64,000 bases of DNA from Bacteroidales bacterium (GTDB taxonomy: Bacteria > Bacteroidota > Bacteroidia > Bacteroidales > UBA932), in NCBI GenBank assembly GCA_017519865.1, contig JAFWRQ010000024.1, positions 62,001-126,000 of the forward strand. The letters run 5' to 3'. The position numbers and the translations under genes were made by a program. Position 1 is the first letter of the stretch; each line of letters opens with the position of its first letter. Below, piece after piece: positions 2,935 through 45,940 of this stretch. The notes under the pieces are model-generated. The model did not search any database, was not told where the DNA came from, and was given only the letters and a program-made list of their open reading frames with translations.

Positions 2935-3857
2935 TGCGCCAGGAGTTTTGCGCCCTTGTTCGTGACCTTGACGACGTAGACCTCGCAACTGATGCCGCGG
3001 GAGTCGAAATGCTCTTTCATTATCTCGCCGGCCTTATGCGCGATCTCGCGCTTGTCGGAGAGCGAGAATACGGAAGGACCGGAACCGGAGATGTTCATCG
3101 CCATCGAGCCGGAGGCCAGGATCTTCTCGCGGAGTTCGTCGAAGCCGGGGATGAACTGCTTGCGGTAAGGCTCGGCCACGGCGTCATGCATGGCGCGGCC
3201 GACCAGGCCGATGTTGCCGGAGTAGAGTCCGGCGACCAGGCCGCCGACGTTGCCCCACTGGCTGATGGCGTCGTGCATGGGGACTGCCTTGGGCAGTATG
3301 CTGCGTGCTGCCTTTGTCGAGACCATGATTTTCGGATGGACGACAGCGCAGTAGAAATTTCCGGGAATCGGCAGTTGTATGATATCCAGGGGCTCGTATC
3401 CGCGGATGAGGATGATGCCGCCGAGCAGGGCGGGAGCGGCGTTGTCGGCGTGGTATCCGCCGCTGGCGAGATTCTCGCCCTCCATCGCGCAGACGACCAT
3501 CTCTTCGTCGGAGAGGGGACAGTCGAACAGTTCGTTCATTCCGTAGGCTGCAGCGGCGCTGGATGCAGCGCTGGAGCCGATGCCCGAGCCGGGGTATATC
3601 TTCTGACAGACGGTAACGTCGATCTGAGCCTTCTTGCCTGTCATTTCCAGGAACTTACGGATGACGGGAGTAATGACGTTGTCCTCGATGTCGTCCGGAA
3701 GGGGAACGTCGGTGCGGTTGGTGATGGTGATGCCGTCACCTTCCGAAGCCGTCATTTCTAGGATGTCTCCGACCTCGTCCAGTGCGAGGCCCATTATATC
3801 GAAACCGCATCCGAGGTTGGCTATGGATGCCGGCGCGAATACCCTGACTTTTTTCAT
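2931..3857 (-). CDS. thrB: homoserine kinase
   Basis: 308 residues. GHMP-family kinase that phosphorylates homoserine with ATP. The ATP-binding loop PGSGIGSSAAS is at about residues 90-100, the N-terminus MKKVRVFAPASIANLGCGFD is the family start, and a third GHMP motif (NISGSGPSVFSL) lies near the C-terminus. Six bases separate it from thrA and it overlaps thrC by four bases. Part of a single transcript with thrA and thrC. Confidence 0.95.
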   Translation of the reverse strand: MKKVRVFAPASIANLGCGFDIMGLALDEVGDILEMTASEGDGITITNRTDVPLPDDIEDNVITPVIRKFLEMTGKKAQIDVTVCQKIYPGSGIGSSAASSAAAAYGMNELFDCPLSDEEMVVCAMEGENLASGGYHADNAAPALLGGIILIRGYEPLDIIQLPIPGNFYCAVVHPKIMVSTKAARSILPKAVPMHDAISQWGNVGGLVAGLYSGNIGLVGRAMHDAVAEPYRKQFIPGFDELREKILASGSMAMNISGSGPSVFSLSDKREIAHKAGEIMKEHFDSRGISCEVYVVKVTNKGAKLLAQ

Positions 3858-40658: not shown

Positions 40659-41185
40659 TCAAGTTCGTCCCGGAGATGACCTCCGTCGTCATGGAGGAGA
40701 TTCCCGACCGCGTTACCCTGGCAGTGGACATATCCAACTGCCGGGGTAACTGCATCGGGTGTCATTCCCCGTTCCTTAAGGAGGATGTCGGCGAAGAACT
40801 TACCGCCGACATAATCGATGGACTTGTCAAGGAGAACTTCGGCATAGACTGTTTCCTTTTCCTCGGGGAGGGGAGGGACCCTGACCGCCTCCTTGAACTC
40901 GCAGCGCATGTCCGCAGTCTGGGGCTGGTCCCTGCCTTGTACAGCGGACGCCGCGAGGTGGACGGATCGTTCTGGGAGTTTTTCGACTACATCAAAGTCG
41001 GCCCGTACATTCCGGAAAGAGGTCCTTTGAACGACCCGGGGACCAACCAGAGGCTGTATCGTGTCCTGGCCCCGGACGAGACTGCCCCGAAAGGCGCGGA
41101 GTTCCGCATGAGGGCATCCGGACGCCGTTTCGTCGACATCACCCCGCGATTCTGGCACAGGGGCCTCGAAGCACAGCGCGTTTGA
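40655..41185 (+). CDS. nrdG: anaerobic ribonucleotide reductase activating protein (radical SAM)
   Basis: 176 residues. CRGNCIGCHSP gives the CX3CX2C ligands for the 4Fe-4S cluster. Installs the glycyl radical on NrdD using S-adenosylmethionine. Four-base overlap with nrdD. Normal length (E. coli 154). The region after it is AT-rich and contains the promoter for the glutamine synthetase unit. Confidence 0.93.
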   Translation: MIKFVPEMTSVVMEEIPDRVTLAVDISNCRGNCIGCHSPFLKEDVGEELTADIIDGLVKENFGIDCFLFLGEGRDPDRLLELAAHVRSLGLVPALYSGRREVDGSFWEFFDYIKVGPYIPERGPLNDPGTNQRLYRVLAPDETAPKGAEFRMRASGRRFVDITPRFWHRGLEAQRV

Positions 41186-41214
41186 AAAAGCGCGAAAAAA
41201 ACTTTGCGCGAGTA

Positions 41215-41244
41215 TTGTGTTTTTAAAATTTTTTTCTAACTTTG
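41215..41244 (+). promoter_or_regulatory. promoter of the glutamine synthetase transcription unit
   Basis: TTG, 19 bases, TAACTTTG: near-perfect consensus. It ends 23 bases before the small leader ORF at 41268 and 195 bases before the glutamine synthetase ATG, leaving a long leader. Confidence 0.8.
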
Positions 41245-41267
41245 TAAGCAGTTGGTTAGAGAATAAT

Positions 41268-41354
41268 ATGGCAAATGGATTCCAGAAAAAGCAGAAGCGC
41301 TCCCAGGCCCAGTCCTGGCAGGGCGTCTGTCGTCGTATCCACCCGGTTGGATAA
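41268..41354 (+). CDS. glutamine-rich leader peptide upstream of glutamine synthetase
   Basis: 28 residues starting MANGFQKKQK and ending IHPVG, then TAA. Five of 28 residues are Gln, all CAG codons, at positions 6, 9, 13, 15 and 18 (41283-41321). The Gln codon block contains a small hairpin (CCAGG with CCTGG). The last codons and stop (41345-41354) can pair with 41389-41398, which includes the first six bases of the terminator stem: six Watson-Crick pairs GGATAA/TTATCC plus four G-T. A ribosome finishing the peptide would cover this segment and allow termination; one stalled on Gln codons would leave it free to block the terminator. Function is inferred from layout. Confidence 0.65.
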   Translation: MANGFQKKQKRSQAQSWQGVCRRIHPVG

Positions 41355-41392
41355 CGAGCCGTTTGCGACAGTATACCTGTAAAACATATTAT

Positions 41393-41425
41393 CCGGTTCT
41401 TCCAGCGTGGAGAATCGGATTTTTT
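41393..41425 (+). terminator. intrinsic terminator/attenuator before glutamine synthetase
   Basis: CCGGTTCTTCC pairs with GGAGAATCGG (ten pairs, one G-T, one bulged T) around the five-base loop AGCGT, followed by A and six T. It lies between the leader peptide and the glutamine synthetase ATG at 41440. A GTG at 41407 that would extend the gene lies inside the loop. Confidence 0.8.
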
Positions 41426-41439
41426 CAATAAAGCAGCTT

Positions 41440-43620
41440 ATGGAGAGCAACAGACTGGAACTGGTCAGGTATTCTTTCGAGAAGAAGGCACTTCCCGTGG
41501 AAATCCCTGAAGGACGTACTTCCGAGTATTACGGCGAACTCGTGTTCGACCGGCCTAAAATGCGCAAATATCTTAAGCCTGAAGTGCTTAAGGCGCTGCT
41601 CGACTGCATCGACAACAGCAAGCCGCTCGACCGCAAGACCGCCGACGGAGTAGCCAGGGGCATGAAGGAGTGGGCGCTTGACAACCACGTCACGCATGTC
41701 ACGCATTGGTTCCAGCCTCTTACCGAGGGTACGGCCGAGAAGCACGACGCCCTGATTGACTACGACGGTGAAGGGGGAGTGATCGAACAGTTTGACGGCA
41801 AGTCCCTCGCACAGCAGGAACCGGACGCGTCCTCTTTCCCCAGCGGAGGCATCCGCGCCACCTTCGAGGCGCGCGGCTACACCGCCTGGGACCCTACGTC
41901 CCCCGTCTTCATCCAGGGCGACACCCTCTGTATCCCCACGGTTTTCATCTCCTATACCGGCGAGGCTCTGGATTACAAGACCCCGCTCAAGAAGGCCCTC
42001 AAGGCCGTTACAGATGCCGCCCTGCCCATCTGCCGTCTCTTCGACCCCAATGTGAACAAGGTTTTCTGCTACCTCGGTTGGGAGCAGGAGTACTTCCTTG
42101 TGGACGAGGCCCTATACGCCGCCCGCCCGGACCTTATGATCACCGGCAGGACCCTGATGGGACACATGTCATCCAAGAACCAGCAGCTTGATGACCATTA
42201 TTTCGGAGCCATCCCTGCACGTGTCGCTGCCTTCATGCGCGAGCTTGAGGTCGCCGGCCACCGTCTGGGCATTCCCCTGAAGACCCGTCACAACGAAGTG
42301 GCTCCCAATCAGTTCGAACTTGCTCCGATATACGGCGAATGCAATCTATCCAACGACCAGAACCAGATGGTGATGAACCTGATGAACACCATTGCCCGCA
42401 AGCACGGATTCGTCGTGCTCCTGCACGAGAAACCTTTCGAGGGCATAAACGGTTCAGGCAAGCACAACAACTGGTCGCTCGGCACCGATACGGGCATTCC
42501 GCTCCTGGCTCCCGGAAAGGACGCGATGGGCAACCTCCAGTTCGTCACCTTCTTCGTAAACGTCCTTGCGGCCGTTCAGAAGCACAATGCATTGCTTAAA
42601 GCCAGCATAGCCAGCGCCACCAACGCTCATCGCCTGGGTGCGAACGAGGCGCCTCCCGCAATCGTCTCGGCCTTCCTCGGCCGCACGATGACTCAGGTAC
42701 TCCGCAAACTCGTGGACCTGCCGTCCGGCACCCCTGTCGAGATTGCGGGCAAGGAAGGCCGTGGCGTAGGCCTGGAAGAGATCCCCGAGATCTTCGTCGA
42801 CAATACCGACCGCAACCGCACCTCGCCTTTCGCCTTCACCGGCAACCGCTTCGAGTTCCGTGCCGTCGGATCCTCGGCCAATTGCGGCGAGGCGATGGCC
42901 ACGCTCAACGCTGCCGTCGCCCAGCAGCTCACTGCGTTCAAGAAGGATCTCGACGCCGAATTGGCTAAGGGCAAGGACCTTAGCATCGCCCTTATCGACA
43001 CGCTCAAGCCCGTCATCAGCTCCATCCTCGACGTCGTATGCTTCGACGGGAACGGCTACACCGAAGAGTGGAAGAAAGAGGCGGAACGCCGCGGTCTCGA
43101 CACCGAGACCAACGTCCCTAAGATGATCCGTGCATACCTTGCGCCGGAGGCCCTGGGAATGTTCGCCGAGACCGGAGTGTTCTCCGAGAAGGAGATCCTT
43201 GCACGCTGCGACGTCAAGTGGGAGACCTACTGCAAGAAAGTTCAGATCGAGTCGCGCGTGATGGCGAGGATGGCTGCGAATCATATCGTCCCTACCGCCA
43301 TCGAGTACAAGACCAGGCTTCTCAAGGAACTGTCCCTGAGCAAAGAAGTGTTCGGACGCCTGGAAGGCTGCGATACCGAGCGCAATCTCGTGATGGAGAT
43401 GTCAGCCCTCATCGAGGAAATCCGCACGCGTGTGGATGCGATGCACAAGGCCCGCAAGGCCGCCAACGGCATCGAGGATGACTACGGCCGTGCGCTGGCG
43501 TACCACGGCATCGCCGAGAGCCTCAATGCCCTCCGCAAGCCCATCGACCGTCTTGAAGAGATAGTCGACAACCGTCTGTGGCCTCTGCCCAAGTACCGTG
43601 AACTCCTATTTATCAGTTAG
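41440..43620 (+). CDS. glnN: glutamine synthetase type III
   Basis: 726 residues, matching the GSIII family (about 730; E. coli GSI 469). Family blocks: VTHVTHWFQPLTEGTAEKHDA, QQEPDASSFPSGGIRATFEARGYTAWDPTSP, GWEQEYFLVDEALY, TRHNEVAPNQFELAPIYGECN, INGSGKHNNWSLGTDTG, NRTSPFAFTGNRFEFRAVGSSAN, ending WPLPKYRELLF. ATP-dependent synthesis of glutamine from glutamate and ammonia. The ATG just past the terminator is preferred; a GTG at 41407 would add 11 residues but starts within the terminator loop. Followed by ddh and gdhA, both ammonia-fixing. The leader suggests control by charged tRNA-Gln. Confidence 0.95.
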   Translation: MESNRLELVRYSFEKKALPVEIPEGRTSEYYGELVFDRPKMRKYLKPEVLKALLDCIDNSKPLDRKTADGVARGMKEWALDNHVTHVTHWFQPLTEGTAEKHDALIDYDGEGGVIEQFDGKSLAQQEPDASSFPSGGIRATFEARGYTAWDPTSPVFIQGDTLCIPTVFISYTGEALDYKTPLKKALKAVTDAALPICRLFDPNVNKVFCYLGWEQEYFLVDEALYAARPDLMITGRTLMGHMSSKNQQLDDHYFGAIPARVAAFMRELEVAGHRLGIPLKTRHNEVAPNQFELAPIYGECNLSNDQNQMVMNLMNTIARKHGFVVLLHEKPFEGINGSGKHNNWSLGTDTGIPLLAPGKDAMGNLQFVTFFVNVLAAVQKHNALLKASIASATNAHRLGANEAPPAIVSAFLGRTMTQVLRKLVDLPSGTPVEIAGKEGRGVGLEEIPEIFVDNTDRNRTSPFAFTGNRFEFRAVGSSANCGEAMATLNAAVAQQLTAFKKDLDAELAKGKDLSIALIDTLKPVISSILDVVCFDGNGYTEEWKKEAERRGLDTETNVPKMIRAYLAPEALGMFAETGVFSEKEILARCDVKWETYCKKVQIESRVMARMAANHIVPTAIEYKTRLLKELSLSKEVFGRLEGCDTERNLVMEMSALIEEIRTRVDAMHKARKAANGIEDDYGRALAYHGIAESLNALRKPIDRLEEIVDNRLWPLPKYRELLFIS

Positions 43621-43643: not shown

Positions 43644-44543
43644 ATGGAAAGAATCAAAGTCGCGATTGTCGGTTACGGCAACATCGGCAAGTATTCGCTC
43701 GAGGCGGTGGAAGCCGCCCCGGATATGGAATGCGTCGGCGTGGTCCGCAGGAACGGATCTTCCGCCGGATTCCCGGAACTTGCCCCCTATAAGGTAGTTT
43801 CCGATATAAGGAAACTCGGCAAAGTGGACGTCGCCATCCTTGCGACTCCCTCGCGTAAAGTCAAGGAGAATGCCGAGATGTATCTGGCAATGGGCATCAA
43901 CACCGTTGACAGTTTCGACATCCACACCGACATCTGCGCGCTTCGCGCCGCCCTCGATCCGCTGGCCAAGGTCAACGGCGCGGTGAGCGTCATCTCCGCC
44001 GGATGGGATCCGGGTTCCGACTCAGTAGTCCGCGCCCTGATGCAGGGCCTTGCCCCCAAGGGCATGACCTACACCAATTTCGGCCCCGGCCGGTCGATGG
44101 GCCACTCGGTTGCGGCCAAGGCCATCGACGGGGTCAAGGACGCGCTCAGCGTCACCATCCCCATCGGCACCGGTCTGCATCGCCGTATGGTCTACGTCGA
44201 GCTTGAGGAAGGCGCCGATTTCGCCGCTGTCGACGCTGCCATCCACGCCGATCCTTACTTCGCCCATGACGAGACCCACGTACAGCAGGTCGCCAGCGTG
44301 GATGACCTCAACGATGTCGGCCACGGTGTCAACCTCGTCCGCAAGGGCGTGTCGGGCAAGACACACAACCAGCATTTCGAGTTCGACATGAGCATCAACA
44401 ATCCCGCGCTCACCGGTCAGGTGCTGGTCATGGCTGCACGTGCCTCTGTCCGCCAGACCCCCGGCTGCTACACGATGATCGAGATACCGGTCATCGACAT
44501 GCTTGCCGGCGACCGCGAGACCCTCATCCGCAACCTTGTATAG
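43644..44543 (+). CDS. ddh: meso-diaminopimelate D-dehydrogenase
   Basis: 299 residues. NADPH-dependent reductive amination of tetrahydrodipicolinate to meso-DAP in one step, fixing one ammonia. Rossmann start VAIVGYGNIGKYSLEAVE; SAGWDPGSDSV, YTNFGPGRSMGHSVAAK and HNQHFEFDMSINNPALTGQV are typical of Ddh. Gives lysine and the peptidoglycan cross-link residue without the succinylase or aminotransferase routes. Between glnN and gdhA with short gaps. Confidence 0.95.
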   Translation: MERIKVAIVGYGNIGKYSLEAVEAAPDMECVGVVRRNGSSAGFPELAPYKVVSDIRKLGKVDVAILATPSRKVKENAEMYLAMGINTVDSFDIHTDICALRAALDPLAKVNGAVSVISAGWDPGSDSVVRALMQGLAPKGMTYTNFGPGRSMGHSVAAKAIDGVKDALSVTIPIGTGLHRRMVYVELEEGADFAAVDAAIHADPYFAHDETHVQQVASVDDLNDVGHGVNLVRKGVSGKTHNQHFEFDMSINNPALTGQVLVMAARASVRQTPGCYTMIEIPVIDMLAGDRETLIRNLV

Positions 44544-44581
44544 TATAATAGTTAGTAGTGTAATCCATAGTTAAACGAATC

Positions 44582-45940
44582 ATGAGCAAGTTTACAGACA
44601 AGTATGTCGAGTCTTTCATGACCGACCTCATCGCCAAGAATCCCGGCGAAACCGAGTTCCACCAGGCTGTCCGCGAGGTTTTGACCAGCATCGCTCCAGT
44701 CCTTGAGGCCTATCCCCACCTCCTGGACAACAAGATCATGGAGCGTATCGTCGAGCCTGAGCGCGTCATCATGTTCCGTGTCCCCTGGACCGACGACAAG
44801 GGCGAGATCCACATCAACCGCGGTTTCCGTGTACAAATGAACAGCGCACTCGGCCCCTACAAGGGAGGCATCCGTTTCCACGCCAGCGTCAACCTCAGCA
44901 TCATGAAGTTCCTCGCTTTCGAGCAGACCTTCAAGAACAGCCTCACCACCCTTCCCATGGGCGGCGGCAAGGGCGGTTCCGACTTCAACCCGCGCGGCAA
45001 GTCCGATGCCGAAGTGATGCGTTTCTGCCAGAGCTTCATGACCGAACTCCAGCGCCATATCGGCCAGGACACCGATGTGCCCGCAGGCGATATCGGTGTC
45101 GGCGGCCGTGAGGTCGGTTTCCTCTTCGGCCAGTACAAGCGCCTTCGTGACGAGTTCACCGGCACCCTCACCGGCAAGGGCCTTGCATGGGGCGGCAGTC
45201 TCCTGCGTCCCGAGGCTACCGGCTACGGCGCCTGCTACTTCGCCCAGGACATGCTCGCCACACGCGGTGAGACCTTCGAGGGCAAGACCGTCGTCGTATC
45301 CGGCGCCGGCAATGTCGCCCAGCACGCGGCCGAGAAGGCAATGCGTCTCGGCGCCAAGGTCGTCACCCTCTCCGACTCCGACGGCTTCATCTACGATCCG
45401 GAAGGATTCAACGAGGAGAAGATCGCTTATGTCAAGCATCTCAAGAACGCCCTTCGCGGACGTATCAAGGAATATGTAAACCAGTATCCCAACGCCACTT
45501 ATACCGGAGGCGGCGCGAAGCCTTGGGGCATCAAGTGCGATATCGCCATGCCTTGTGCCACCCAGAACGAGCTTGACGGCGAGGCCGCCAAGACCCTTCT
45601 TGCCAACGGCTGCTTCTGCGTGACCGAAGGCGCCAACATGCCTTCCACCCCGGAGGCCATCGAAGCCTTCCAGGCCGCCAAGATCCTCTATTCTCCCGGC
45701 AAGGCATCCAACGCCGGCGGCGTTGCGACTTCCGGTCTCGAGATGACCCAGAATTCCATCCGTCAGAAGTGGACTGCCGAAGAAGTCGACGCACAGCTTC
45801 ACAGGATCATGTCCGACATCCACGCTGCCTGCCTCAAGTATGGTACCGAGGAGGACGGATATATCAACTATGTGAAGGGCGCCAACATCGCCGGCTTCAT
45901 CAAGGTCGCCAATGCAATGGTTGACCAGGGACTTGTATAA
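44582..45940 (+). CDS. gdhA: NADP-type glutamate dehydrogenase
   Basis: 452 residues, hexameric GDH size. GPYKGGIRFHASVNLSIMKFLAFEQTFKNSLTTLPMGGGKGGSDF holds the glutamate site and catalytic lysine; SGAGNVAQHAAEKA is the dinucleotide fold; the C-terminus has NAGGVATSGLEMTQNS. Catalyses ammonia assimilation into glutamate. GTTAGTAG lies in the short gap upstream. Third ammonia-fixing gene in a row. Antisense to it is a long open frame (44552-46672) that is a composition artefact. Confidence 0.96.
   Translation: MSKFTDKYVESFMTDLIAKNPGETEFHQAVREVLTSIAPVLEAYPHLLDNKIMERIVEPERVIMFRVPWTDDKGEIHINRGFRVQMNSALGPYKGGIRFHASVNLSIMKFLAFEQTFKNSLTTLPMGGGKGGSDFNPRGKSDAEVMRFCQSFMTELQRHIGQDTDVPAGDIGVGGREVGFLFGQYKRLRDEFTGTLTGKGLAWGGSLLRPEATGYGACYFAQDMLATRGETFEGKTVVVSGAGNVAQHAAEKAMRLGAKVVTLSDSDGFIYDPEGFNEEKIAYVKHLKNALRGRIKEYVNQYPNATYTGGGAKPWGIKCDIAMPCATQNELDGEAAKTLLANGCFCVTEGANMPSTPEAIEAFQAAKILYSPGKASNAGGVATSGLEMTQNSIRQKWTAEEVDAQLHRIMSDIHAACLKYGTEEDGYINYVKGANIAGFIKVANAMVDQGLV

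Follow-up and report, generated by a model that had tools for sequence, protein, structure and literature searches.

A glutamine-codon leader ahead of glnN in a Bacteroidales genome as a probable ribosome-mediated transcription attenuator

Introduction

Leader-peptide transcription attenuators are known from the trp, his, thr, ilv, leu and phe operons. In attenuators of the trp/his type, the regulatory codons lie inside segment 1 of the leader RNA, so that a ribosome stalled on them disrupts the 1:2 stem. Excerpts of PMC2659441 describe some leader-peptide transcription attenuators. Here, we analyzed a 64,000-nucleotide stretch (the window) of a Bacteroidales genome (assembly GCA_017519865.1, contig JAFWRQ010000024.1, positions 62,001 to 126,000 of the forward strand), in which a short leader with repeated glutamine (Gln, Q) codons precedes glnN, the gene for a type III glutamine synthetase. 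Sequence comparison indicates that this leader is very probably a ribosome-mediated transcription attenuator sensing charged tRNA-Gln, with tRNA-Asn sensed in addition by sister leaders that also carry asparagine (Asn, N) codons. We found no case of glutamine or asparagine leader-peptide attenuation in searches of an open-access library. Glutamine serves generally as a signal of nitrogen status. To our knowledge, how Bacteroidota control nitrogen assimilation at the level of transcription is poorly understood. The evidence presented below is comparative throughout and comes almost entirely from metagenome-assembled genomes.

Results

At the window locus, promoter, leader, terminator and glnN follow one another on the forward strand. 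The promoter (41215–41244) comprises TTG at 41215–41217 and TAACTTTG at 41237–41244, which we take to match the Bacteroidota −33/−7 promoter pattern; it was absent from the listing of a sigma-70 scan. In the three closest relatives (L032–L034), TAACTTTG is unchanged and there are a few base differences in the −33 part. The leader open reading frame (ORF), MANGFQKKQKRSQAQSWQGVCRRIHPVG, runs from the ATG at 41268 to the stop at 41354 and has 28 codons, five of them CAG (41283, 41292, 41304, 41310 and 41319). An intrinsic terminator lies at 41391–41425, with a 12-pair stem (41391–41420) and a run of six T (41420–41425), and the glnN ATG at 41440 is found 14 nucleotides (nt) past that run. The glnN product (41440–43620) matched the Pfam families GSIII_N (2.5e-72), Gln-synt_C-ter and Gln-synt_C. 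An earlier note on this DNA had described a consensus promoter, a 28-codon ORF with five CAG codons and a terminator with six T in this order before glnN, all of which are present; its ten terminator pairs have to be raised to 12. In a simple terminator scan, the region as a whole contained 2 terminator-like sites against 3.8 in shuffles, that is, no excess. A search for the leader in a phage collection gave no match. The genome carrying the window is 2.1 Mb in size and 75% complete.

The earlier note had interpreted this arrangement as a glutamine-codon attenuator, and comparison across glnN loci lends this reading sequence-level support. We compared 80 named glnN loci (best named records), labelled as three Candidatus Cryptobacteroides species and otherwise as Bacteroidales, Bacteroidia and one Rikenellaceae metagenome-assembled genomes; we infer that both the genome of the window and the genus surveyed below are Cryptobacteroides. 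After two loci with <150 nt upstream were set aside, a complete Gln-rich ORF with a terminator was located directly before glnN in 39 of the remaining 78 (>150 nt upstream), and one further Gln leader (L088) is cut by a contig end. Several of the 39 loci are near-duplicates, and the terminator was set by hand in five of them (L032, L034, L037, L038 and L057). The small Gln-rich ORF is thus kept together with its terminator while its sequence varies, which is the pattern of conservation the earlier note had asked for. The relatives L032–L034 (glutamine synthetase identity 91–92%), of which L032 and L034 hardly differ from each other, retain both the loop described below and an ORF with 5 Gln. 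Gln-rich leaders reappear at many diverged glnN loci, with peptides such as MAYTVYNQQQNQQSQGNQSGVVSACV (L056), MNVYSQQQMQQQGQSQVLRLFAC (L039) and MINLFVNNNSNQQNQNQQQALRLLRVLFPVVRHK (L085), and even a glnN of only 60% identity (G022, L020) has the leader MNGFYHHFSGYSAQQQKQDQGQQALGVALCIR. Some leaderless glnN loci lie behind another gene; at L110, the leader precedes an upstream asnB. Separately, a strong GGGCTAGTC-type terminator stands before glnN without a Gln-rich ORF at L062, L073, L083 and L091, possibly representing a different or decayed control element. At L064, upstream of position 3001, the terminator of the leader family is present and the Gln ORF is gone, as if deleted or misassembled.

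Going beyond the earlier note, such leaders were also found before glnK-amtB, asnB and gltB. A covariance model (R1) built from 29 glnN leaders was run on 400 genomes of the genus and matched 319 of them at E ≤ 0.01, a figure that does not count leaders because weak matches include plain terminators. Of its hits, 40 were examined, hand-picked mostly down the E-ranked list; a Q/N-rich ORF with a terminator was present in 34 and missing in six (L168, L172 and L176–L179). The 34 leaders precede glnN (15), glnK (8), asnB (8), gltB (1), a divergent glnN (1) and a porin gene (1). P-II, ammonium transporter, asparagine synthase and glutamate synthase domains were confirmed with Pfam in examples. A Pfam search with the porin gene gave no match; the porin is homologous to one beside glnK at other loci in the order. 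Within the genome of the window, a second leader, MTNLFIISANFKQQLVSENSQNSQNNKLYLVLPVG, precedes asnB, which is followed by a second glnN, and a third, MIDIFTITANFKQQLVSENSQNSQNNNAVSCLAGRIR, precedes glnK. Eight of the nine model hits in this genome were examined and one (C26) is a leader; the model missed the leaders of the window and of glnK. In G008, a glnN leader heads a same-strand glutamine-metabolism cluster of glnN, gltB, gltD, two presumed pyrG and purF genes, glnK, amtB and asnB (L277 552–15341, G008:C13). In G120 (L250, C44:54500–73500), one cluster contains three separate leaders, for gltB, asnB and a divergent glnN, and the asnB leader is nearly all Asn.

Gene-centred samples of the genus, which were not chosen by the model and covered 51 genomes, gave lower rates of leaders directly upstream, in part because glnK and asnB can lie inside operons. 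A leader with a terminator was found at 3 of 11 glnK loci, and a fourth (L257) has the ORF and a hairpin below threshold. Among 13 asnB loci, the start was found in 8, of which 2 have a leader; others, such as L270, directly follow amtB. Several neighborhoods were also recorded in passing. The L250 cluster reads as gltB-gltD, a purF-like gene, asnB-pyrG and glnN with carA-like genes, some of these names being our presumption. A gltB after the second glnN of the window's genome was read by eye only. Directly 3' of the window glnN, at 43644–45940, other nitrogen genes adjoin, which we take to encode diaminopimelate dehydrogenase and glutamate dehydrogenase.

The codon content of the leaders is strongly skewed. 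In 43 dereplicated leaders, Gln makes up 20.2% of residues against 2.3% in the glutamine synthetase of the window (8.6-fold) and Asn 15.4% against 4.5% (3.4-fold). Lys (0.57 of the level in that enzyme) and Arg (1.0) are not enriched, and Glu and Asp are depleted (Glu 0.6% versus 8.1%). The earlier note had cautioned that the Gln content could be chance in a peptide also rich in Lys and Arg; the window peptide is indeed Lys/Arg-rich, and across the leaders it is Gln that is enriched, not Lys or Arg. Gln is written as CAG 412 times and as CAA 20 times in 70 distinct leaders. A terminator lies within 120 nt of 108 of 153 Q/N-rich ORFs, some loci being counted twice. Asn codons, which the earlier note had left aside, appear from the sequences to count as well, above all before asnB. 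The fraction N/(N+Q) is 0.31 in glnN leaders (n=26) and 0.67 in asnB leaders (n=6; P = 1.9e-4), with glnK leaders intermediate (0.51, n=7); one asnB leader, MMFRANNNNNNYMQNNNYILPLYCVVLPAGHTK, has nine Asn and one Gln. Codons that track the gene product are what an attenuator predicts. The sole gltB leader contains five Asn and a single Gln and conforms less well to this expectation. A gene for glutaminyl-tRNA synthetase (GlnRS) is present in the genome of the window and GatB was not found in its 75% complete assembly; tRNA-Gln charging should therefore read free Gln.

An arrangement arisen by chance, from a terminator with a random ORF or from a low-complexity CAG stretch, has to be weighed against these data. 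Taken alone, the window peptide, in which 5 of 28 residues are Gln and Lys/Arg also occur, could be such a case, and plain terminators did produce false model matches. However, the Q/N leaders among the examined model hits all precede nitrogen genes or the glnK-associated porin, and frame 0 contains 49% Q/N without stops against 2–6% with stops in the other frames (the ORFs having been chosen on frame 0). We therefore regard chance as scarcely credible.

Apart from Gln and Asn, the leader peptides differ widely, which bears on nascent-peptide arrest of the TnaC kind, in which the peptide itself would stall the ribosome in response to free glutamine. The small peptide is conserved in position, and the C-termini SACV and SCV recur within subgroups, as an arrest peptide might. 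However, peptide variation outside Q/N is wide. In the genome of the window, moreover, the leaders of asnB and glnK have the 3' part of their RNA in common, which a 1-nt difference places in different reading frames, so the C-terminal peptide is unlikely to matter. Peptide arrest is accordingly a very improbable explanation.

At the RNA level, the 3' end of the window ORF is predicted to fold into an outer stem S0 (41327–41333 with 41365–41371) enclosing an inner stem S1 (41334–41341 with 41348–41356, A41353 bulged), whose 3' arm overlaps the leader stop codon (41352–41354). The S1 5' arm is identical in the window and three relatives. Within the S1 loop CCCGGT (41342–41347), CCGG at 41343–41346 could pair with CCGG at 41393–41396 in the terminator 5' arm. 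The S0/S1 hairpin has a z-score of −2.4, with 5 of 200 shuffles equally good; when the terminator is included (41318–41426), z = −4.0, no shuffle of 200 is equally good, and S1 and S0 are kept.

The same design was examined in a dereplicated set of 47 leaders. The RNA between the last Q/N codon and the terminator pairs with the terminator 5' arm of its own locus at −12.6 kcal/mol, compared with −10.1 kcal/mol for shuffles (P = 6e-13); its margin over swapped arms is slight (−12.1 kcal/mol, P = 0.004). In an unconstrained fold, a hairpin loop contains half or more of the best complementary segment in 37 of the 47 distinct leaders, and on average 72% of the segment is in a loop versus 12% for the background (P = 1e-8). 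The antiterminator is therefore probably not a plain nested 2:3 stem. This placement suggests a pseudoknot antiterminator, with an H-type pseudoknot likely in most sister leaders according to these predictions. Loop:arm pairs such as CCAGCC/GGCUGG, CCGGUC/GGCCGG and CCGGUC/GACCGG vary on both sides.

S1 sequences are very unlike between loci, and on average the best partner of a 5' arm is the 3' arm of the same locus. RNAalifold on a MAFFT alignment recovered the terminator only; it misses S1 because indels misalign this stem, and the structure was therefore named by hand and swap tests were used. With 18 representatives, permutations equally good as the observed pairing numbered 0 of 2000 for S1, 7 of 2000 for loop:arm and 0 of 2000 for the terminator. 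On the imperfect MAFFT alignment, the hand-named structure has standard pairs in 69% of S0, 77% of S1 and 94% of loop:arm positions, and it exceeds shuffles in paired cells (0/500), both-side-changed cells (0/500) and covariation score (1/500). The covarying arms that the earlier note had proposed as a check are borne out to this extent: the swap tests favor own arms on average, and shuffled sequences pair less well with the terminator arm than the complementary segment of the locus does.

The main competitor is the same attenuator built as a classical nested switch, in which region 2 is sequestered in S1 until a stalled ribosome opens that stem and a plain 2:3 antiterminator can form, as the trp and his leaders operate. 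The window offers such an option: GGTTGGATAA (41345–41354) can form 10 contiguous base pairs (bp), four of them G-U, with TTATCCGGTT (41389–41398), exactly as the earlier note had proposed. However, this pairing would have to break S1, yet the fold of 41318–41426 retains both S1 and S0. Across the 47 leaders, S1 begins a median of 15 nt past the last Q/N codon (range 3–27), S1 being computed with the loop held open, so that its loop lengths are not independent evidence. A ribosome footprint extends about 12 nt beyond the A-site codon, and a stalled ribosome would mostly spare S1. The regulatory codons thus do not fall inside segment 1 as in the trp/his type, and the leaders were not classed as trp-type on account of this spacing. 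From the last Q/N codon to the start of the complementary segment, the median distance is 27 nt; by a loose criterion, a ribosome at the stop codon would extend to the loop segment in 45 of 47 leaders. S1 with its loop pairing is preferred as the antiterminating state because the stalled ribosome mostly leaves S1 free and the stop-positioned ribosome covers the loop; we consider the nested switch unlikely, if well short of implausible.

A glutamine-binding riboswitch with an incidental ORF would be in keeping with the control of cyanobacterial glutamine synthetase by glutamine riboswitches. However, no Rfam family reached its gathering score anywhere in the window, and none did so as a leader in 12 sister loci; the scan did recover a TPP (thiamine pyrophosphate) riboswitch (RF00059) in one of these loci, at L188 463–560 close to glnN of G022, which provides a positive control. 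For the glnA and downstream-peptide RNA models, there was no gathering match in the window or the 12 sister loci and nothing relevant up to E = 5 in 41180–41460; the T-box model likewise gave no match in the window, the 12 sister loci or 41180–41460 (to E = 5). The S1 sequences are also strongly divergent, and no common unpaired core was noticed by eye. A riboswitch is accordingly an extremely improbable alternative.

In the order, model matches at E ≤ 1e-5 occurred in 49 of 198 genomes, and none of the 20 loci examined (four contig-cut and unplaced) had more than 5 Q/N in 14 codons. Among 30 regions upstream of glnK in the order (from 21 of 89 genomes), a leader with a terminator was found only at the locus of the window's genome. 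One candidate, L223, reached 7 of 14 Q/N and was rejected, as it lies inside the upstream porin gene.

Discussion

The ORF, codon bias, terminator, S1, complementarity, spacing and gene context can be read in the DNA itself; for translation, stalling, the switch and its direction, we propose the following course. When glutamine is ample, the ribosome would pass the CAG codons to the stop, unfold S1 and cover its loop; the terminator would then form and transcription would end before glnN. When glutamine is scarce, the ribosome would stall at a CAG codon upstream of S1, allowing S1 to fold and its loop to pair with the emerging terminator 5' arm. The terminator would be blocked and glnN transcribed. 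For the window leader, the antiterminator could be either the loop pairing of 4 bp or the nested one of 10 bp.

Several observations weigh against this interpretation. S1 would form without any ribosome too. In the window, the pseudoknot pairing between loop and arm is just 4 bp, and the best complementary segment lies mostly outside the loop (0.30 inside), making this leader one of ten exceptions among the 47. The covariance model from sister leaders does not match the window leader up to E = 1, nor does a detector requiring 6 Q/N in 14 codons pick it up. The window leader is therefore an outlier, with fewer Gln, a Lys/Arg-rich peptide, a short loop pairing and no detection by either tool. 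Elsewhere, 38 of the 78 glnN loci have no such leader directly upstream, no leader was found outside the genus in the samples used, and 2 of the 18 representatives (L020 and L060) have no preference for their own S1 arm. On the MAFFT alignment, both-side-changed pairs (86/500) and further pair types (290/500) were not above shuffles. Among 12 close pairs, 8 synonymous and 35 non-synonymous changes give no synonymous bias, in line with a C-terminal peptide that is unlikely to matter, and Q/N sites changed about as often as others (18/119 versus 17/95, P = 0.71). Q/N richness persists, and individual positions do not.

Nitrogen assimilation in Cryptobacteroides may be organized more broadly along these lines. 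We think it moderately probable, judging from the leader sequences, that it is under a dispersed RNA regulon in which Gln/Asn-codon leaders with pseudoknot antiterminators head glnN, gltBD, glnK-amtB and asnB, the charging of tRNA-Gln and tRNA-Asn provides the nitrogen signal, and the loop evolves in concert with the terminator arm as the sequences of peptide and stem diverge. Were this so, glutamine synthetase, glutamate synthase, the ammonium transporter and asparagine synthetase would all be under the control of a single translational sensor.

Like the trp, his, thr, ilv, leu and phe attenuators, the leaders combine a short ORF rich in codons for an amino acid of the pathway, an intrinsic terminator and a predicted alternative pairing with the terminator 5' arm, the general features of an attenuator. 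They differ from these systems in their Gln/Asn codons and nitrogen-assimilation genes. In contrast to nested 1:2/2:3 attenuators, most of them (37/47) place the antiterminator segment in the loop of a hairpin that follows the regulatory codons, and a pseudoknot is predicted. With the glutamine riboswitches of cyanobacteria (glnA and downstream-peptide RNAs), they would share RNA control of glutamine synthetase by glutamine status; however, those RNAs contain a ligand-binding aptamer, whereas the leaders here have no Rfam match. The LEU element of actinobacterial leuA, as presented in excerpts of PMC1262725, is similar in that consecutive Leu codons occur in a leader ORF and a pseudoknot is predicted. 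In its base stem, the Leu codons pair with the Shine-Dalgarno box of leuA, whereas the target here would be the arm of an intrinsic terminator, and codon mutations without effect are cited in the same excerpts (PMC1262725). Clues to attenuation in Flavobacterium psychrophilum, also a member of Bacteroidota, likewise involve leader peptides before amino-acid biosynthesis operons; the excerpts of PMC9723704 include no glutamine, asparagine or nitrogen-assimilation case. Judged by their sequences, the leaders described here thus represent a known general kind of control with a new specificity, for Gln and Asn, and with a predicted pseudoknot antiterminator in most distinct leaders.

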